Assembly: GCF_014855495.1 (NCBI RefSeq)
Contig: NZ_JACYFJ010000001.1
Coordinates: forward strand, 310,001 to 374,000
Length of the DNA stretch: 64,000 nt
Direction of reading: 5' to 3'
Source: Euzebyella saccharophila
Lineage (GTDB): Bacteria > Bacteroidota > Bacteroidia > Flavobacteriales > Flavobacteriaceae
A program made the position numbers and the translations under genes. The notes beneath the pieces were generated by a model. It saw only the letters and a program-made list of their open reading frames with translations. It made no database searches and was not told the origin of the DNA. This document shows positions 18,317 through 26,882 of this stretch, piece by piece; positions within the stretch are counted from its first letter, which is position 1, and each line of letters opens with the position of its first letter.

Positions 18317-21148
18317 TTAACCTCCCCTTCTTTTCTTCTTGACCAAAAACCAAATCGAAAAAAAGCTTACCAAAACTACTATCAAGGTTACATACCAAAA
18401 GCTGCTATCAGTGGAAACAGGAGCGTTATTGCCCGAAACGGCATATGCCGCCCAATAGTAAGGATGTTTAAGTAAACTATCGTCCGTATTTTGTAAATAG
18501 GCAAGTTTGGCTTTACGCAACGCTTCACTTTTTGTTGCTCCCTCACTAAGAAATTTGTAGAAGGAATCCATGAGTTGTACACTGCTCTTATCGTTAATTT
18601 TCCATTGGGTATGGACCAAAGCTTTGGCTCCGGCATAATGAAATCCTTTTGAGAGACTCAACATTCCTTGCCCCTTTTTTAAGCTTCCAATACCGGTTTG
18701 ACATGCACTCAATGTTACCAATTCAGCTTTGAGGTTTGTTTCGTACAAATCCCTGATGTATAAAACATTGTTTTCACTTTTATTGTTCTCGCTAAATGCC
18801 AAATACGAATAATCCGGATATGCGTCATTTGCAGAAGCATGGGTTGCTAGGTGCACCATTTTATAATTGGCCACACTTTCTCTAAAATTGGTAAGAGTAG
18901 CATTATCGGCCATAAGGGAATCTAATGGAAAATGAGCATTAATAGCCCTAATTTCATCATCGTTGTAAAGCAATTTCCCAAACTGCCTTTCTTCTTCTTC
19001 AGCTGGAGTATTAAAAGATGGAGCAATAGCCAAAAGCTTATTTTCATCTGCAGACGGACGGTTTTTTAATTCTGCCCAGGTGGTGATGGAATTGGCGTAG
19101 ACAATGTTCTTGGTTTCCAAAAGATATTGGCCATCCCTAATCAATAAATCAAAGGGTAGATAATGAAGTATATCATCTCGAACAATAGTCAAATTAGTCG
19201 TTTCCAATGAATTTAAAACATCGGAAAGCAACGGTTCGTACAGCAAGGTCGCCAATTGTTCAATTTCCTTTTGTTCTTGCCCCAGGCCAGGCTGAGAAAT
19301 CAATCTATAGAGCTGACTAACTTTTTCCCTTTCACTACTTGAAAACGGAATCTTTAAAAATTGTGTTTCCGCAGAAGAGAAAACCAGTACAAACAATCCG
19401 TCTTTCACGACCGTATAGGAAATAATCCCCTGGTCCACTTTTTGAATCTCTTTTTTTAGATCGGTCAATAGAATTGGCTCGGCACCATATTTAAGCGAAT
19501 GGTATTTGGGGTAAGCGAACTTAAGGGAATCTAAAAACGAGTAATACCGTTCTTTCGCGTTAAAAAGTTGGTTGGAAAACTTTTGAGAAGTGCCCGATTC
19601 AAATTGATTTTTCTCAAGTTGAGAGATTTGCACTCTCAATTGAGATTCCTTTTCAAGAATCTCTTTAGGCACTCCGCCAAACTTGGTAGCATGCGCATTT
19701 CTTAAGGCCTCTAAAAGAATAAAATCTTTGTTGGTTTCGGTTATATCTAAGGCCAACTGTAAAATCTTGCCCGATGCAGCTTTTTGATAGGCCAGAAAAG
19801 TGGTAGCTAACATTCTTTCGAAAATGGGATATGCCTTATCCGTTAGAAATTGTTTATCCGCTTTACTCTCAAATTCCATTTTTAGTAGCTGAAAGGTTTC
19901 GAGTAAGTTTTGATTGGTCTGCAAAAGGGATTGCAAATAATCAGGCTTATTGGATTTTTTAAATAGACCTTCTAAAGCCCTAAGTTTTATTTCTAATAAA
20001 TCCAAAAATTGCAATTTGGAAAACACCTTGTTTGGATCGGGATTTATATGGTAAGAATCAGACGTAACCTCCAACCCAGAATTGTCAAAAGCGAATCCAA
20101 GCATTTCCAAGGCTTTTAAAAATTCTCCTTTTTCCAAGGATAATTGCGCCAATTTACCGTAGCTAGCAGCAATATCTTTATGGGGTTTATTTTCTCGATA
20201 TGCCTTATAGGCCTTTAAAGACTTATGATAATACCTTTCCGCATAATCAAAATCTTTCATGCCTAAATAGGCATCTCCAAGAACAGCGAACATTTCTTTT
20301 TGGAAGGTATTTTCGGCCTTAAAATCGGCCAAGCCTTCATTTAATGTAGAAATAGTCTCCTTATAATTCTTTTGTTCCAGAAAATTTTCCGCTAAAAGAA
20401 TGAGGGAAGACAAATAATTGTTCTTGTGGCGAGGATTGTTCACTTTTTCCTGATAAAAGTCTACCGCTTCAACCAATAAAGAATTGGCAGCTGCCAACCT
20501 ACCTTTAGCTTCATAGGTCTGTGACAATAGCTTTTTAGTATTGAAGGAAACGGATTGCCACTCGGGTATACTATCTTGATAGGTGGCTACCCATGCCAAA
20601 TCTTTCTGAAAATAAAACTCGGCCTCCTCATACTTGGCCATATGATGATGGGTGAGTCCTAAGTAGCTGAAAATTGCGGACATCATATCAATTTCAACGG
20701 TGGTCAAGCTTTCTACAGGTAAGTCCTTTAATAAACTATAATATTCATAGAAGTAACTTTCCGCATTGGAATAGTCCTTAAGTTTATAATGATACGCACC
20801 CTTTTCAAACAACAAATTCTGTTTGAAATAGGAACCCATGTAAACCGTATCCAACTGCGGAGTAGTATTAATTAGGTGCTCTGCCTTACCAATATTTTTA
20901 CCATAGGAAGGCAAATCATAAAAATTACTATTGGCGTTCAAAAGATAGCTCAAGACCAGTACCTGGGTCTCGATGTCCTTTACCTCTCCGGCATGATTCA
21001 AAGCTTTCTCGTAGTAAAAATAGGCGCTGTCCTTATCTTTATAATGATATTGAAGCCCTTTATCAAAGGCCGCTTGCATATCATCGGCCTGCGGCCACAT
21101 CTTGCAACCACAAAAAAACAATAGTATGTACAGCCTAATTTTTAACAT
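18317..21148 (-). CDS. TPR-CHAT domain protein, membrane-anchored
   Basis: A 943-residue protein with an N-terminal signal (MLKIRLYILLFFCGCKMWPQ), many tetratricopeptide repeats (about 25-370), a helical linker with coiled coil (about 480-540) and a caspase-like CHAT domain (about 580-905). The CHAT catalytic residues appear as H766-LAT-H770 and the SAC816QTG cysteine, both intact. A single C-terminal transmembrane helix (about 918-936) ends in KKKRRGG. Topology therefore places TPRs and protease in the periplasm. It converges with the sigma/anti-sigma pair. CHAT proteases cut specific partner proteins after activation; the periplasmic TPRs of the anti-sigma are an attractive but unproven partner. 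Confidence 0.85.
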   Translation of the reverse strand: MLKIRLYILLFFCGCKMWPQADDMQAAFDKGLQYHYKDKDSAYFYYEKALNHAGEVKDIETQVLVLSYLLNANSNFYDLPSYGKNIGKAEHLINTTPQLDTVYMGSYFKQNLLFEKGAYHYKLKDYSNAESYFYEYYSLLKDLPVESLTTVEIDMMSAIFSYLGLTHHHMAKYEEAEFYFQKDLAWVATYQDSIPEWQSVSFNTKKLLSQTYEAKGRLAAANSLLVEAVDFYQEKVNNPRHKNNYLSSLILLAENFLEQKNYKETISTLNEGLADFKAENTFQKEMFAVLGDAYLGMKDFDYAERYYHKSLKAYKAYRENKPHKDIAASYGKLAQLSLEKGEFLKALEMLGFAFDNSGLEVTSDSYHINPDPNKVFSKLQFLDLLEIKLRALEGLFKKSNKPDYLQSLLQTNQNLLETFQLLKMEFESKADKQFLTDKAYPIFERMLATTFLAYQKAASGKILQLALDITETNKDFILLEALRNAHATKFGGVPKEILEKESQLRVQISQLEKNQFESGTSQKFSNQLFNAKERYYSFLDSLKFAYPKYHSLKYGAEPILLTDLKKEIQKVDQGIISYTVVKDGLFVLVFSSAETQFLKIPFSSSEREKVSQLYRLISQPGLGQEQKEIEQLATLLYEPLLSDVLNSLETTNLTIVRDDILHYLPFDLLIRDGQYLLETKNIVYANSITTWAELKNRPSADENKLLAIAPSFNTPAEEEERQFGKLLYNDDEIRAINAHFPLDSLMADNATLTNFRESVANYKMVHLATHASANDAYPDYSYLAFSENNKSENNVLYIRDLYETNLKAELVTLSACQTGIGSLKKGQGMLSLSKGFHYAGAKALVHTQWKINDKSSVQLMDSFYKFLSEGATKSEALRKAKLAYLQNTDDSLLKHPYYWAAYAVSGNNAPVSTDSSFWYVTLIVVLVSFFSIWFLVKKKRRGG

Positions 21149-21206: not shown

Positions 21207-21848
21207 TTATTTGGCATAAACAGGAATATCTAAAAATAGGCCTTCATCTACTACCTTACTTTGAGGTTTTATTTTAAGCGTTCCTTCTCCGTTAAGTTCT
21301 GATTTAATATACATAAGAATAGAACCATCTTTAGATTTTGTTAGGCTACTCCCCCTACCTACTAATTGATTTTTTGCATTATAAATTTCTACCTGAATAT
21401 GCTCAAGACCTCTTGCCAATTCAATACTCGGATATTCTTTTAAATTGATTTTTGGAATACCACAATTAGCCTGTGGATCATTAAAACAACCCCTGGGTGG
21501 CCTAGGGGGATACGGCGCCTTAGGTCTTACAATCATGGTCAAACTTTCTTTGTAGATTTCAATATCCGCTTCCTTTTGCTGAGCCGCCTCTAATTGAGGA
21601 AGTAAATGTCTCTTACCGGCACGTATGGCCTCTTTTAGTTTACTTATAGTTCTTCTCGTTTTTAACTGCTCTGCAATTACTGCGTGTTTCACTAGCTCAA
21701 GACCATTTAAAGATGTACTTTCTTGCTCCAATCTAAACGAAAAGTTGGTGGCCTCCGTTTGAATCTCTTCTTCGGGCAAATCAGTATGGGAACACGCCCA
21801 AGTCATGATTAAAAAACTACATATGGCAATTAAATTCATTGTTTTCAT
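21207..21848 (-). CDS. Lipoprotein of unknown function
   Basis: A 213-residue protein starting MKTMNLIAICSFLIMTWAC, a lipoprotein signal with Cys 19 as the likely acylation site. The first half is helical (residues 50-105, LVKHAVIAEQLKTRRTISKL); a proline-rich hinge YPPRPPRGCFND with two cysteines follows; the rest is beta-strand-like (IEIYNAKNQLVGRGSSL). I recognise no family. It precedes the CHAT gene on the same strand with a strong terminator between. The leader AAACCTTTTAAAG lies 7 to 8 bases before the ATG and resembles the one at 22281 and 16910. Confidence 0.65.
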   Translation of the reverse strand: MKTMNLIAICSFLIMTWACSHTDLPEEEIQTEATNFSFRLEQESTSLNGLELVKHAVIAEQLKTRRTISKLKEAIRAGKRHLLPQLEAAQQKEADIEIYKESLTMIVRPKAPYPPRPPRGCFNDPQANCGIPKINLKEYPSIELARGLEHIQVEIYNAKNQLVGRGSSLTKSKDGSILMYIKSELNGEGTLKIKPQSKVVDEGLFLDIPVYAK

Positions 21849-22104
21849 TTTTTAGCTTTAAAAGGTTTAGTTATTTATTATTGTAAAATCTTCTTTTCTA
21901 TGTTAGCAGGCAAATAGAAATGTATCAAATGGGTATTCTACTGTATAATTGGAGAATCCTATATTTATTTACCTTTCTTCTATACACGTTTGCTCTAGAG
22001 CTATTTGATTGGCTTTTTCTGTAGGATATCCTATTTTCCCTAGGCAGGGGGAATTTATATTTTATCCTATAGATAAAATTAAAGTTCTGCCTAATAGGAA
22101 TATT

Positions 22105-22281
22105 TTATTGCTTTTCGGCAATTATCGGCCCCTCTTCTGGGTTGATAGCATTTTCTTCCTCTTCTGGACAATCTTGGTATAAAACACAATTGGCAAAAAC
22201 TTCTTCTTCACCAGTGCAGGAATAAAAGCTAATACATAAAACAATTAGTGCCAAAAATCTACTTAGTCCTTTTGCTTTCAT
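22105..22281 (-). CDS. 58-residue lipoprotein
   Basis: A short complete frame on the minus strand: MKAKGLSRFLALIVLCISFY then SCTGEEEVFANC, and a very acidic tail with EEEEN and NPEEG. The N-terminus is a lipoprotein signal with Cys 22 as the probable acylation site; two more cysteines (ANCVLYQDCPE) could pair in the periplasm. It is too short for usual ORF thresholds, but the signal, the stop placed right after a folded-length acidic tail, and the ACCTTTAAAA leader shared with other lipoprotein genes support it. Function unknown. Confidence 0.6.
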   Translation of the reverse strand: MKAKGLSRFLALIVLCISFYSCTGEEEVFANCVLYQDCPEEEENAINPEEGPIIAEKQ

Positions 22282-22286
22282 GATTT

Positions 22287-22382
22287 CTAATTTTTAAAGG
22301 TTTGTATTCTTTTTTTATGATCAATTTTAAAACTGACTACACCTATTAGTGCAAAAAGAACAATCATGGTAAACATGAACAT
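22287..22382 (-). CDS. Possible 31-residue single-pass membrane peptide
   Basis: A frame from ATG at 22382 (or 22376) to TAG encodes MFMFTMIVLFALIGVVSF followed by KIDHKKRIQTFKN: one hydrophobic helix and a basic tail. It stops 5 bases before the 58-residue lipoprotein start, which fits a translationally coupled pair. Its TAG overlaps the leader region of that lipoprotein. No family is recognised; chance cannot be excluded. Confidence 0.35.
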   Translation of the reverse strand: MFMFTMIVLFALIGVVSFKIDHKKRIQTFKN

Positions 22383-22610
22383 CAAATTTTTTATAGGTTC
22401 TAAATGAAAAATAAGGCGTTACAAATGGAGTAAAACAATCTTCCGGGAAGCGTTTAAAGCTTTTCAATATGCTCTTTCAGGTAATTTGGACTATGAATCG
22501 GACAAAATTTGACTGTCCAAGTAGTAAACTCTTTTTTTGAGATTTTCAATTAAAAAGTGAGGCATAAAAACAGTCTTGTATATAAAACAAGACCAAAGGG
22601 GCGTAAAGCA

Positions 22611-22641
22611 AAAAAAAGCCGGAAGTAAATCTTCCGGCCTT
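22611..22641 (-). terminator. Terminator of the candidate RNA
   Basis: Perfect eight-base stem GCCGGAAG / CTTCCGGC with a five-base loop, followed on the minus strand by eight T. This is the strongest terminator in the window and has no protein gene immediately upstream of it, which is a main argument for an RNA gene. Confidence 0.88.
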
Positions 22642-22914
22642 TCCCACATTTAAAACTGAAAATATGATACTGTCAAACCGTACGGCCCCTGATATATCAA
22701 AATCGATTTTACCAAAAGGATGCTGATTTAGGTAGTTCCCCCGAAACCTATATATCGAGCATGATCACCGGTATGGTGCCCTCAAGGTTACATCAGAACA
22801 AAAAAGTGCAATAGGTTGCTACTTTATTTTGAGCCGTACCTTTTTTGGATTGACAGTTTCATAAAATTTTTGACGATTTCCCCCATGGGAAGGTTCACCG
22901 TATTTATTTTTATA
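22611..22914 (-). ncRNA. Candidate structured non-coding RNA, about 300 nt
   Basis: The minus strand carries a promoter-like pair (22921-22951), then about 270 bases with nested inverted repeats, then a strong terminator (22611-22641). The closing stem is built from 22847-22863 with 22663-22679 (15 of 17 positions pair), 22833-22839 with 22680-22686 (GTACGGC, perfect) and 22826-22832 with 22697-22703 (TCAAAAT, perfect), a nearly continuous rod of about 30 pairs. Inside it are the hairpin CACC-GGTG at 22766-22778 and an AGGT/ACCT hairpin near 22728-22750. It does not show the conserved cores of tmRNA, RNase P, SRP RNA or common riboswitches. A rod with a large apical region recalls 6S-type RNAs, but that is only an impression. 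A 20-codon frame lies in its 5' part. Confidence 0.6.
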
Positions 22915-22920
22915 TTCTAT

Positions 22921-22951
22921 ATAAATTAGCATTCAGCTAAAGTATTTCAAA
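22921..22951 (-). promoter_or_regulatory. Promoter-like pair for the candidate RNA
   Basis: Minus-strand TTTG, exactly 19 bases, then TAATTTAT. The -33 box and spacing match the Bacteroidota consensus; the -7 box differs from TAnnTTTG at two positions. Transcription would start near 22914. Confidence 0.45.
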
Positions 22952-23085
22952 AACTCTACTGATCGGGGGGCCGTAAAAATAAATATTTTCTTGAAACCGA
23001 CCATCTTTACAAAAGATATTAATGGCCCTAAAATCAACATTCACATAATATTAACCCAATCTATTTAAAGATTTGATTATTCTTT

Positions 23086-23649
23086 TTATTCAATGGAAGA
23101 AGCCTCCTTAAGGGTAGCAATAAAATTACCGGTTACCTTTAAATTGCCTTCTTGAAAATTTTCTAAACTTAAATTAATGATACCATGCAGTACTTTTTCA
23201 TTTGCATGGGTAATATTAATTGTTCCTGATTTTGTGTAATAAGGCTGCTCACCTAAAATGGAAACATCAGCATAGCCAAAAGCTCCATTATTATCAGGTA
23301 TGAATCCCAACGTTTTGGAGTCAATCTTGTAATAACCAATAGGTCCCTGATTTGTGCGGTCCTCCTTTTTCAATGTAAGTCCCATTTTATAACCTTTATG
23401 GTCCAATACATCCTCAAAAACTATTTCTATTGAATGAAAACCTTTACTGGAACTAGCCTCCCTATAAAAGAAATTAGCTTTGCCCTCCATTTGGTCTAGT
23501 TGAACTTGGTTTGTCTTGAAAACAAAACCTCCATTTTCCAAACTTGAAAATAGGGCAGCATCCCTTCCTTCCATACTGGCGCCTGTAATAAAAATCATAG
23601 GTAAAAACACCCATAGGCACATCTTTGCTGTTTTCATTACTGTTTCCAT
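23086..23649 (-). CDS. Exported protein of unknown function
   Basis: A 187-residue protein. The start may be at 23649 (METVMKTAK) or, with a shorter leader, at 23637 (MKTAKMCLWVFLPMIFITGA); either gives a signal peptide. The mature part is beta-rich: YREASSSKGFHSIEIVFEDVL, KMGLTLKKED, YADVSILGEQPYYTKSGTINI and a closing LKVTGNFIATL. This resembles the small lipid- or ligand-binding beta-sandwich proteins common in flavobacteria, but I cannot name a family. It follows a 58-residue membrane protein with an 11-base gap, so the two are probably one operon. Confidence 0.6.
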   Translation of the reverse strand: METVMKTAKMCLWVFLPMIFITGASMEGRDAALFSSLENGGFVFKTNQVQLDQMEGKANFFYREASSSKGFHSIEIVFEDVLDHKGYKMGLTLKKEDRTNQGPIGYYKIDSKTLGFIPDNNGAFGYADVSILGEQPYYTKSGTINITHANEKVLHGIINLSLENFQEGNLKVTGNFIATLKEASSIE

Positions 23650-23660
23650 ATTTCTTAAGG

Positions 23661-23837
23661 TTACTTTTGAGCCAATTCCATTGAATCGGATTGAGATTTA
23701 TCAAATGACATCTTCTCTATTTCGCTATCCATACTTATAAACTCCTCAACCTCCATTTTTGGTTCTTTGTCGTTAGTAACAATTGCCAAGACTAGCGTAA
23801 GAACTAAAAGACCAAACATTATCAGACACTTTTTCAT
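23661..23837 (-). CDS. 58-residue membrane or exported small protein
   Basis: A complete short frame, missed by common length cut-offs: MKKCLIMFGLLVLTLVLAIV, one hydrophobic helix, then an acidic, charged tail (TNDKEPKMEVEEFISMDSEI, EKMSFDKSQSDSMELAQK). It ends 11 bases before the start of the exported protein at 23649, so the two frames look co-transcribed. It could be a signal-anchored small protein or a short secreted peptide. No family recognised. Confidence 0.5.
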   Translation of the reverse strand: MKKCLIMFGLLVLTLVLAIVTNDKEPKMEVEEFISMDSEIEKMSFDKSQSDSMELAQK

Positions 23838-24158
23838 TACTCGTAGTTTTGTTCATATTCCGTTATCAAACATATCTTGAATGGGAGAACAGGTGCAGTC
23901 AATTTGTGAAATCTAATGTAGTGGAGAATAAGGGTGACACCTATTACGGATGTATAACTGGGCACTTTTTGTGTGTAATCTGCAATAAAAAATGGTTCAC
24001 GAAATGCAAAATGGTCTCTATTACAAAATATTGTAGGTTTTTTCTTTATATTTAATACGAATAAGATTGCTTTTTTCGATTTTAATTCATTTTTTACCAT
24101 TTATACGGTTATTACGTCCATTGGCACATCTTTTCAAAATGTATTGGTTACATACAAC
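23838..24158. other. Intergenic stretch, no gene supported
   Basis: About 320 AT-rich bases between divergent genes. Open frames exist on both strands (for example 23849-24055 and 23837-24100), but they overlap each other, lack promoters or signal sequences, and have compositions unlike the neighbouring proteins. I see no repeat or strong hairpin. It probably holds the two divergent promoters. Confidence 0.5.
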
Positions 24159-24166
24159 TAAATTTG
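24159..24166 (+). promoter_or_regulatory. -7 element before the LytTR regulator
   Basis: TAAATTTG matches the Bacteroidota -7 consensus TAnnTTTG exactly and lies 21 bases before the chosen ATG. No matching TTTG is found at -33. This also argues against the TTG start at 24164, which would lie within it. Confidence 0.5.
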
Positions 24167-24187
24167 ATTAATTTACACTTAAAGCTT

Positions 24188-24928
24188 ATGGTTATGTTAG
24201 ACGCTGTCATTGTAGATGATGAAATAAAGGCCTTGCAAAGCCTTTCTTGGGAATTGACAAATTTTAGTGATGAAATAAATGTAAACGCCTCTTTCACGGA
24301 CCCGTTTGAAGCATTGACCTATTTGGAAAAGAACACTCCAGATTGTCTTTTTCTGGATATTGAAATGCCCACCATGGACGGTTTTCAATTTATACAAAAA
24401 CTGACCAATAAAAATTTCCCGGTGGTCATTACAACAGCGTACAACCAATACGCTATTAAAGCGCTAAAGAACGAGGCAATTGATTATCTTTTAAAACCCA
24501 TAGACTCAGATGATTTAAAGGATACTATTATTAAAATAAGAAAGTTTAATTCTAAAAACTATACTGCAGAACGTTTGGAAAAAATCTTGCTTAGCTTCAA
24601 TGATAGCGCCAATCATAAGAAAATTACTTTCAATACGGATGGCAAGCTGGTCTTTTTAAATAGTGATGAAATCCTATATGCAGAATCTGATGGAAACTAC
24701 AGCACTATTTATCTTGCGGATGGTCAAAAAATTGTTCTCACAAAAAAATTGAAGGAAGTAAATGAGCTTTTACCCAACAGTTCCTTTTTTAGAATACATA
24801 ATTCATACATTATCAACCTGAACAAAATAAAAGAGTTTTTAAAGACTGACGGTTACGTTGTTTTGGAATCCAACCATAAAATACCTGTATCTAGGCAGAA
24901 AAAATCAGACTTTTTGGATATGCTCTAA
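24188..24928 (+). CDS. LytTR-family response regulator
   Basis: The ATG at 24188 (or 24194) is chosen because MLDAVIVDDE is the usual receiver start. The receiver domain (about 1-120) has the acidic pair VDDE, the phospho-acceptor Asp in FLDIEMP (residue 57 from this start), TTAYNQYAI and the lysine in LLKPI. The C-terminal LytTR DNA-binding domain (about 145-245) shows LYAESDGNYSTIYL, FFRIHNSYIINLNKIKEF and IPVSRQKK. It binds DNA as a phosphorylated dimer. The partner kinase gene starts 7 bases after its stop. Confidence 0.9.
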   Translation: MVMLDAVIVDDEIKALQSLSWELTNFSDEINVNASFTDPFEALTYLEKNTPDCLFLDIEMPTMDGFQFIQKLTNKNFPVVITTAYNQYAIKALKNEAIDYLLKPIDSDDLKDTIIKIRKFNSKNYTAERLEKILLSFNDSANHKKITFNTDGKLVFLNSDEILYAESDGNYSTIYLADGQKIVLTKKLKEVNELLPNSSFFRIHNSYIINLNKIKEFLKTDGYVVLESNHKIPVSRQKKSDFLDML

Positions 24929-24935
24929 AATTTAA

Positions 24936-26882
24936 ATGCAGTCCCAAATAACATATGCTTTTAGTTCCCCACTTTCGCTTATCCCGCGCTTAGTGCGTCT
25001 TGCCATATACCTATTCTTATCGTTGATTTCCGGCCATGTTTCGGGTCAAAATATTGATGCATCGGTAAAGAGGACTATAGATAGTTTAATTTCTAAGGGA
25101 ACTACCTCCATCAAGGAAATTGAAAAAGTCATAAAGCCCTTTGAGATGGACACCTTACAAATGGACTACTTTGTAAAGGCTTCCGCGTTAAAAAATTATA
25201 TGCCCGGGCAAGTAGTAGGGCTTAACAAACTGGGTGTCAGGTACCGTCTTGTTTCAAAATTCAACAAATCCATTGAAAAGCACAAGCAGGCGCTGGAGTC
25301 TGCACAAATTTCCAAAAATGTAGACTTGGAAATTTACTCCCTTAATATGCTTGGTGTCATCTATGAAAGAATAGATGCGATAACTGCGGCTCTTGATTAT
25401 ACCTATGAGGCTTTAGACCTTGCCCAAAAGCAACCAAAACCTTCCATCAACATTCAACAGAGCATAAGTCATTCCTACCATAATATTGGGCAAATAAACC
25501 GTATTTTAGGCCAGTATGACTTGGCCACCCAACAATTTAAAAAGGCTCTAGAAATTGAAGAATCCCTAAAGAATAAGTTAGGTCTTGCCATCAATTATCA
25601 AAATATTGGTGAGTGTCAAGAAGCACAGGGCATGCTTGAAGACGCCCTCCAAACCTACGACAAGGCAATGACCTTGAACAACGAACTTCATTATCTACGG
25701 GGCAAAATAATTTGTAATAACGGAATTGCACACATATATGTGCACCAGAAGGAAACCCAAAAAGCGGTAAATCTGCTCCAAAACACTCTTTTGGATGCAA
25801 AGAAACATGGAGAACATACCTTAATTGCCGCCGTACATTTAACGTTAGGTTGGGCTCTTACTGAATTAAAAGAATTTGATAAAGCCGAAGAAAACTTGCG
25901 CTTGGGACTCGAACTTTCCAGCACGTACAATTTACAACGAACAAGAGCTGATGCCTATGATCTTCTTTCCGATTTATGGGCAAAAAAGGGGGATTACGAG
26001 AAGGCCCTTAAGTACTTTAGGACCTCCTTGGATGTAAAGTCCCAAATTAAGAACAATAACAACGTACGTTATGTTTATAGCTCCATAATTAAAAGGGACA
26101 ATGAGAAGAGCTTAAACAGTATGAACCAGCAACTGCGAAAAAATAATACAAGACTGCTGGTATCTGGAATTGTGATTGCCTTACTTTCCGGTATTTTTTA
26201 CATTCTCTACCGTCAATATCAACTTAAAAATGACAAAAAGTTATTGACTTTAGAGCAAAGTATGTTGCGCAGCCAAATGAATCCGCATTTCCTGTTTAAC
26301 TCCCTTAATTCTATAAAACTTTATATAATTAATAACGAACAGAAAAATGCCGTTCATTACCTCAACAAATTCTCTAAACTCGTCCGAAAAATTTTAGAAT
26401 CCTCCTCAATGCGGGAAATCCCCCTAGCCGAAGAATTGGAAACGGTTGAACTATATATGAACATTGAAAACATTCGTTTTTCCAATGAAATTGATTTTAA
26501 CGTGCATGTGGAAGAAGATATTGAGGTTCATACCATTAGAATTCCATCCTTAATTCTGCAACCCTTCCTTGAAAATGCCTTATGGCACGGGCTCTCCTCC
26601 AAAAAGGGTGAAAAGAAAATAGAATTGCATATCTACAAAAAAACAAAAGACTACCTAGATATTTCCATTACCGATAATGGTATAGGACGGGAGGCCGCAG
26701 AGCGTATTAAACAGAACAAAGTACTAAAGCGCAAATCTGTAGGAATAGAAATTACCAAAGAGCGACTCGCCAATTTTTCTAAAGACCTATTGAATACTTT
26801 TGACGTAGAATTTGTGGACCTCTATGATGAAAACAATGAACCAAGTGGCACAAAGGTTATTCTACACATCCCTATGACGTAG
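24936..26882 (+). CDS. TPR sensor histidine kinase (LytS/YehU type)
   Basis: A 648-residue kinase. A signal or first membrane segment at about 17-38 (LVRLAIYLFLSLISG) is followed by periplasmic tetratricopeptide repeats (about 80-370, for example ISHSYHNIGQINRILGQYDLATQQF), a transmembrane helix near 405-425 (LLVSGIVIALLSGIFYILY), a short coiled coil and the His_kinase domain with H451 in MNPHFLFNSLNSIK. The ATPase part has the N-box FLENALWHGLSS and G-box DNGIGRE. It phosphorylates the LytTR regulator encoded just upstream. The signal is unknown; the TPRs suggest a protein or peptide. Its last 21 bases overlap the convergent DUF3109 gene. Confidence 0.9.
   Translation: MQSQITYAFSSPLSLIPRLVRLAIYLFLSLISGHVSGQNIDASVKRTIDSLISKGTTSIKEIEKVIKPFEMDTLQMDYFVKASALKNYMPGQVVGLNKLGVRYRLVSKFNKSIEKHKQALESAQISKNVDLEIYSLNMLGVIYERIDAITAALDYTYEALDLAQKQPKPSINIQQSISHSYHNIGQINRILGQYDLATQQFKKALEIEESLKNKLGLAINYQNIGECQEAQGMLEDALQTYDKAMTLNNELHYLRGKIICNNGIAHIYVHQKETQKAVNLLQNTLLDAKKHGEHTLIAAVHLTLGWALTELKEFDKAEENLRLGLELSSTYNLQRTRADAYDLLSDLWAKKGDYEKALKYFRTSLDVKSQIKNNNNVRYVYSSIIKRDNEKSLNSMNQQLRKNNTRLLVSGIVIALLSGIFYILYRQYQLKNDKKLLTLEQSMLRSQMNPHFLFNSLNSIKLYIINNEQKNAVHYLNKFSKLVRKILESSSMREIPLAEELETVELYMNIENIRFSNEIDFNVHVEEDIEVHTIRIPSLILQPFLENALWHGLSSKKGEKKIELHIYKKTKDYLDISITDNGIGREAAERIKQNKVLKRKSVGIEITKERLANFSKDLLNTFDVEFVDLYDENNEPSGTKVILHIPMT

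Follow-up and report, generated by a model that had tools for sequence, protein, structure and literature searches.

The described system nearest in logic to the locus reported here is agr–RNAIII of Staphylococcus aureus. As set out in PMC2837412, agr consists of two divergent units, both of which are activated by AgrA; RNAIII works through C-rich loops and carries the coding sequence of delta-hemolysin as well. According to PMC4847170, AgrA is a LytTR protein, as the title of a reference there has it, and LytTR sites, those of YpdB-type promoters likewise, consist of two 9–11 nt repeats with 11–13 nt between them. The flavobacterial −7 promoter element is given as TAnnTTTG in part of PMC9723704. 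The same part newly describes other structured flavobacterial sRNAs, Rfp18 and further sRNAs of Flavobacterium psychrophilum, and mentions no LytTR link or peptide for them; our comparison with these RNAs is by description only.

The locus reported here lies in a 64,000-nt stretch of the Euzebyella saccharophila genome (contig NZ_JACYFJ010000001.1, positions 310,001–374,000; hereafter the window). Like agr–RNAIII, it has the unit of a structured RNA divergent from two-component genes, here with regulator-type repeats on both sides, a small peptide ORF upstream of the RNA, and a conserved hairpin loop rich in one base. It differs in that the loop is GGGG, whereas that of RNAIII is C-rich; in that the RNA matches no Rfam family; in its TPR-type sensor kinase, its phylum, and its membrane peptide of mostly 35–70 aa; in that peptide-maturation genes were not noticed among the neighbors; and in that action on mRNAs is only proposed for this RNA. 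The RNA is not an RNAIII homologue. That a LytTR system can have a peptide plus an RNA as its output is already known from agr; a LytTR-controlled peptide-plus-RNA transcript was not found described for Bacteroidota in the literature searched.

A conserved structured RNA with an invariant hairpin tip

An earlier note on the window had proposed a structured RNA gene on the minus strand at 22611–22914. The minus strand of 22600–22920 folds at −94.6 kcal/mol (z −3.8), which 0 of 100 shuffles equaled, and the closing rod of the fold covaries across genera. The RNA has these parts:

22656–22871, minus strand: conserved core of the structured RNA, with closing rod, variable hairpins, inner helix, and G-rich hairpin, from the covariance model match G000:C8:332656-332871 and covariation
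22847–22863, minus strand: outer rod, 5′ arm, partner 22663–22679; paired in the fold, homologous helix covaries
22663–22679, minus strand: outer rod, 3′ arm, partner 22847–22863; paired in the fold, homologous helix covaries
22833–22839, minus strand: middle rod, 5′ arm GUACGGC, partner 22680–22686 (GCCGUAC); 98.1% of cells paired
22680–22686, minus strand: middle rod, 3′ arm GCCGUAC; from the fold and the sequence-only alignment
22721–22761, minus strand: long hairpin UGCUCGAU...AAUCAGCA bearing the invariant tip; outer part covaries
22731–22748 (G000:C8:332731-332748), minus strand: invariant tip 18-mer GGUUUCGGGGGAACUACC, located by exact match
22610–22643, minus strand: intrinsic terminator after the rod, from the letters and fold pairing; missed by a simple terminator scan

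Three nested stems had been proposed for this region. The middle arms are perfectly complementary and belong to the covarying rod, as do the outer arms, which contain two mismatches and so are not perfect. The third stem, 22826–22832/22697–22703, is complementary in the window, but both the minimum free energy fold and the consensus pair the rod CUC with GGG instead, and its 5′ arm UCAAAAU is not conserved. Two of the three stems are supported. The terminator described at the end of the gene is a hairpin, GCCGGAAG-N5-CTTCCGGC followed by eight T (22638–22610), that is paired in the fold; a simple terminator scan of 22000–23500 missed it while listing four other terminator-like sites.

The consensus rod has two parts and, on its 5′ side, an A-rich internal loop; it encloses one or two hairpins of variable length. 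There follow an inner helix of the CUGAUG/CAUCAG type, with double changes in 5/6 pairs, and a hairpin of the CCAAC/GUUGG type. The tip of the long hairpin reads GGU-UUC-GGGG-GAA-CU-ACC, with GGGG as the loop, and its six inner pairs are invariant in 95/95 aligned members, all of which had been selected for having the tip. Members found by the covariance model keep the tip as well, one of them with an extra G, and in some distant members little is kept beyond the rod and the tip.

Convincing DNA homologues were present in 10 genomes among 99 relatives, counting the window's own genome (L001–L010); the tally of 14 had included short fragments (L011–L014), which were dropped, and L015 and L016 are second pieces of counted hits. 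The covariance model built from the ten homologues matched 41/299 genomes of the window's family, once per positive genome. The match in G182 is weak (31 bits) and lacks both the 18-mer and the rod, and that in G216 (30 bits) covers the hairpin region only, so the firm count may be 39–41/299.

Pairing was evaluated in two alignments. In the model-fitted alignment, which holds 95 of 100 tip-selected loci at E 1e-6 (nine of the 95 being model-building sequences), 93.5% of cells pair, against 25–44% in slid controls, with double compensatory changes in 29/40 pairs. When the 41 top-scoring members of the 95 were aligned by sequence alone, 95.3% of cells paired (slid controls 29–42%) and 21/44 pairs had double changes; these are the compensating base changes among relatives that the earlier note had proposed to look for. 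Across a locus set of 138 distinct RNA sequences with sufficient flank, taken from all fetched loci, the folds had a mean of 34 enclosing rod pairs, as compared with 16.6 in 276 shuffled-flank controls; at least 15 enclosing pairs were found in 137/138 sequences, yet also in 133/276 controls. We regard it as practically certain that the feature is a real, structured, and conserved RNA.

The exact tip 18-mer occurs in at least 120 stretches of a collection of 84,980 species. Among the matches listed, its carriers are Flavobacteriaceae genera (Zobellia, Maribacter, Arenibacter, Muricauda/Allomuricauda/Flagellimonas, Robiginitalea, Eudoraea, Croceitalea, Cellulophaga, and others, with one “Flavobacterium sp. 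ASW18X”), unclassified Bacteroidia or Bacteroidetes, and possibly mislabelled records (“Cytophaga sp. FL35” and an “Algicola sp.” MAG). The culturable strains Zobellia uliginosa DSM 2061 and Robiginitalea myxolifaciens DSM 21019 are among these carriers. In a phylum-wide sample, 6/395 genomes carry it, only in the window's own family. The RNA had no blastn match in plasmid and phage collections, and viral contigs contained 0 exact matches to the 18-mer.

Covariance models of Rfam 15, 6S-Flavo included, gave 0 matches at the gathering cut-off for the window and eight homologous loci, and all sub-threshold matches had E above 0.4 (reporting limit 10). The suggestion that the RNA might be 6S-like was not supported. 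It shares with 6S-Flavo RNA (RF01685) a flavobacterial host and an elongated fold, but the genome has a separate 6S-Flavo gene on another contig (G000:C14:29732-29841; 105 bits against a cut-off of 85), and the invariant part of the RNA described here is a G-rich terminal hairpin. Within the titles listed and the passages covered from the open literature, the RNA is not described. By Rfam 15 and that literature, the RNA family is new. The alternative suggestion, a new regulatory RNA of flavobacteria, thus stands as regards novelty, through the missing Rfam match, the compensatory changes, and the family-limited 18-mer, while a regulatory role is what we infer.

The RNA follows a small membrane peptide gene divergent from a LytTR regulator

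From LytTR/kinase leftward, the window has the peptide (23837–23661), secP (23649–23086), the RNA (22871–22656), and the terminator (to 22610). The genes are as follows:

24164–24928, plus strand: LytTR-type response regulator (PF00072 and PF04397), conserved ATG at 24194
24936–26882, plus strand: sensor histidine kinase of the TPR type (His_kinase, PF06580), which presumably partners the LytTR protein
23661–23837, minus strand: 58-aa membrane peptide MKKCLIMFGLLVLTLVLAIVT..., encoded by the first ORF in the unit
23086–23649, minus strand: secP (~187 aa), upstream of the RNA and on its strand, product probably exported

A LytTR gene lies divergent from the RNA in 117/138 loci, including 56/56 of those with flanks of 2.5 kb or more upstream and 2 kb or more downstream; the 21 LytTR-less loci have 0.3–2.1 kb stored upstream. 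Between the two, on the RNA strand, an ORF with the pattern M(K/R)KC..(L/M)F plus a hydrophobic span was found in strict form in 90/117 LytTR loci and in relaxed form in 20/27 of the rest. Codon differences among 27 of these ORFs (39 codons) numbered 7700 at third, 5430 at first, and 3403 at second positions. The peptide had no match in NCBIfam or PADLOC.

secP was detected in 58/138 loci and is confined to some lineages. Its predicted structure is an N-terminal helix followed by an all-beta part, with a middling pLDDT of 71; Pfam and NCBIfam searches gave no family, and the best PDB structure match (E 0.01) was not considered meaningful. Eight aligned members show a fast-evolving protein with an invariant G.FG...GE.P core.

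A probable LytTR-type promoter precedes the peptide gene

The control region between the divergent genes contains these elements:

23951–23983, minus strand: LytTR-type direct repeats GCAGATTACACA / CCCAGTTATACA, 21 bp apart; a weak copy (16/22)
23913–23920, minus strand: −7-type promoter box TACATTAG, 30 nt after the second repeat; putative start near 23908
24096–24128, plus strand: repeat pair on the opposite strand, ACCATTTATACG / TCCATTGGCACA, followed 30 nt later by TAAATTTG; LytTR promoter, presumed to be autoregulatory

Promoters were counted in the 90 loci with a strict-pattern peptide and a recognized LytTR start, from the LytTR ATG to the peptide ATG; repeat pairs were accepted at a score of at least 16/22, and spacings of 20–23 were tried. 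The general LytTR consensus is [TA][AC][CA]GTTN[AG][TG]. Since this consensus, scored on pairs, did not separate real from shuffled sequences, we used a data-derived repeat, ACCNTTTATACA. A pair of such repeats at exactly 21 bp was present in 89/90 loci, the same loci from which the consensus had been derived, as compared with 21/900 shuffles. The 9–11 nt repeats and 11–13 nt spacer of known LytTR sites fit this 21-bp period; YpdB-type promoters differ from ACCNTTTATACA in repeat sequence, and binding of the regulator here is predicted. In the 89 loci, a TAnnTTnG-type box followed the second repeat at 30 nt in 60 cases and at 29 nt in 17, and occurred elsewhere in the next 70 nt in 7. An opposite-strand repeat pair facing the LytTR gene was found in 73/90 loci (control, 36/900), mostly 50–70 nt before the LytTR ATG.

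The window's own peptide-side repeats score 16/22, which a Markov control reached about once per window, and we accept them on the strength of their position, of the box, and of the homologues. In four loci (L036, L038, L116, and L132, of which L116 and L132 are labelled Pricia), the repeats (17–21/22) are still accompanied by the peptide, the RNA, and a box at 30 nt; no LytTR gene was found in the 1.4–2.1 kb stored upstream of these loci, and another gene, which we take to be hflX, lies ~700–800 nt upstream. Of the 12 LytTR-less loci in which 600 nt or more are stored upstream, 10 have repeats and box, and the other two have only 777 and 856 nt stored. The retention of the repeats in such loci indicates that they belong to the peptide-RNA unit. 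On these sequence grounds, LytTR-type control of the unit is very probable, and its transcription would most probably start near 23908, ~1 kb upstream of the RNA.

Five sites in the window scored at least 16, as compared with about one in the Markov control. One of them, at 21921–21953 on the minus strand, lies ~70 nt before a gene for a 213-aa protein (21207–21848, minus strand) that looks lipoprotein-like by eye, and LytTR-like matches were also seen near the corresponding gene in G001, G002, and G013; we do not count this site as a LytTR promoter, the box being missing at the right distance. The 213-aa gene stands beside one for a large TPR protein (18317–21148, minus strand), the C-terminal part of which is presumably a CHAT protease domain.

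A probable single transcript for peptide and RNA

The earlier note had read the RNA as a gene of its own with a promoter-like pair just upstream. A TTG-N19-TAATTTAT arrangement does lie just upstream of 22911, and the ~220 nt between secP and the RNA leave room for a promoter in the window. However, a sigma-70 scan showed no promoter there on the minus strand, and over 137 loci sigma-A-type promoters of the flavobacterial form TTG/TAnnTTTG were no commoner upstream of the rod than in shuffles. What is conserved is the LytTR-type promoter ahead of the peptide gene. In addition, the rod starts within 30 nt of the secP stop codon in 31/58 loci (gaps of −41 to +29 nt) and within 30 nt of the peptide stop codon in 34/59 loci without detected secP (gaps of −11 to +40 nt in 38/59), rod starts being approximate in both counts. 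Gaps this short could hardly accommodate a further promoter in those lineages, and an independent sRNA gene, transcribed from a promoter adjoining the rod, is quite unlikely. We consider it likely, from this arrangement, that the RNA is co-transcribed with the peptide; the proposed interval 22611–22914 contains the homologous core and would be the 3′ part of a larger unit, not the whole gene.

A 3′ position also suits a purely cis-acting untranslated element that stabilizes the peptide or secP mRNA or sets its 3′ end. The rod often begins at a stop codon, a terminator-like hairpin follows it in 64/137 loci (6/685 shuffles), and each positive genome has a single match, at a largely constant position. 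A stability stem, however, needs no invariant sequence, yet the inner pairs of the tip never vary in the 95 tip-selected members, and the tip stays constant although the upstream protein content differs between lineages. Moreover, a second RNA, RNA-B, is found behind the same promoter type in other genera without such a peptide having been found. A role in cis alone is accordingly a minority reading, to which we give perhaps one chance in a handful, and a 3′ domain with a regulatory function of its own is preferred.

G-rich loops behind a shared promoter type

RNA-B is short, appears to be unrelated to the RNA described above, and has a GUGGGGAU loop in a hairpin AGUGA-UCGUGGGGAU-UCACU. It occurs in 10/299 genomes, G182 among them in place of the RNA described above, and a LytTR-type start with repeats (score 16–21) was found in 10/10; no peptide of this kind was found beside it. 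At least two apparently unrelated G-loop RNAs thus appear, by sequence, to occupy the same place behind one promoter type in different genera. That both have a G-rich loop and the promoter type in common is our best clue that the output is the loop itself. As a separate observation, L196, L199, and L200, and similarly L207, share a short stretch UUUUAGUUAGUU.AGUUAAUUAUU.GGGGAAAAAGAGAGC and a terminator near the corresponding control region, perhaps a third G-rich RNA; an Rfam scan of L196, L200, and L204 gave no match.

RNA-B also bears on whether the RNA could be a leader or attenuator of the ribonucleotide reductase genes nrdB-nrdA. nrdB follows the RNA on the same strand in 77/138 loci, some of which are cut short, mostly 210–500 nt from the hairpin. 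It is absent from the window neighborhood, where, as in several other genera, different genes follow the RNA. It also follows RNA-B (within 900 nt in 8/10) and adjoins DUF3109 with no LytTR gene detected in five genomes (G021, G008, G009, G019, and G036); among DUF3109 loci from relatives not counted as RNA carriers, 12/18 were without a LytTR gene. Since nrdB stands beside both RNA-B and DUF3109, its proximity looks like an old gene order, and a leader function for nrdBA is very improbable.

Shine-Dalgarno sequences are sparingly used in Bacteroidota. Long peptide leaders (55 nt or more), present in 46 loci, complement UUUCGGGGGAACUA beyond chance (mean z −1.22; 16/46 in the best 5%), typically through a GUUYCCCCA-like stretch ~45–60 nt before the peptide ATG. 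The 41 short leaders showed no excess complementarity to the tip (mean z +0.38; 2/41 in the best 5%), nor did control stretches, upstream and coding (mean z −0.09 and −0.12), or the LytTR leader (mean z +0.5; 3/89). The 100 nt before the rod showed a slight excess (mean z −0.32; 20/137 in the best 5%), and CCCC alone was weakly enriched in leaders (22/87 versus 266/1740 shuffles). The best tip match in the window leader, GUUCUCCC, has eight pairs, including one G-U. Because the loci are related and the signal is absent in short leaders, the complementarity is suggestive only, and with just four unpaired loop bases, pairing would need the short stem to be opened. Regulation through the G-rich tip has, in our estimation, an even chance of being correct.

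Between secP and the RNA, CCCCCCGA is kept in the window's genus. At 22961–22970 on the minus strand, CCCCCCGAUC offers a 7-base complement of UCGGGGG in the RNA, and the stretch holding it is conserved in the genus (three genomes).

A short hydrophobic peptide whose C-rich leader elements complement the RNA tip, in part of the 46 long-leader loci, also recalls a type I toxin-antitoxin pair, in which the RNA would restrain a toxic peptide. Here, however, the RNA lies downstream on the same strand and is not antisense, the 41 positive genomes have one match each, and the largely fixed position and dedicated regulator are unlike those of mobile toxin-antitoxin loci. We find such a pair scarcely credible.

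Discussion

We propose, with somewhat more confidence than doubt, that the RNA is the 3′ regulatory domain of a LytTR-controlled, RNAIII-like transcript that also encodes a small membrane peptide. The activated regulator would switch on its own gene and the peptide-RNA unit, giving a single transcript of ~0.4 kb in Muricauda-type loci and ~1.3 kb in the window. This transcript would yield the membrane peptide and a stable structured RNA, perhaps cut free from the mRNA, with the rod and terminator serving to hold the hairpin up and protect the RNA. More speculatively, the invariant G-rich hairpin could be the working end, which may pair with C-rich stretches of target mRNAs or dock an RNA-binding protein; its targets might include, in some lineages, the leader of the RNA's own mRNA. 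The fuller reading, in which the locus is a Bacteroidota counterpart of agr–RNAIII, with a LytTR system controlling its own gene and a dual transcript whose hairpin regulates C-rich mRNA leaders, is more tentative, and we put it at somewhat under an even chance.

Few regulatory RNAs of marine flavobacteria are described in the literature searched. The present family is one outside Rfam that is supported by covariation and has a known address, a predicted regulator, a conserved micropeptide partner, and one invariant site, which together make its function directly testable. If the RNAIII-like reading is true, the staphylococcal circuit would have evolved a second time, in Bacteroidota, with a loop that favors the opposite base.
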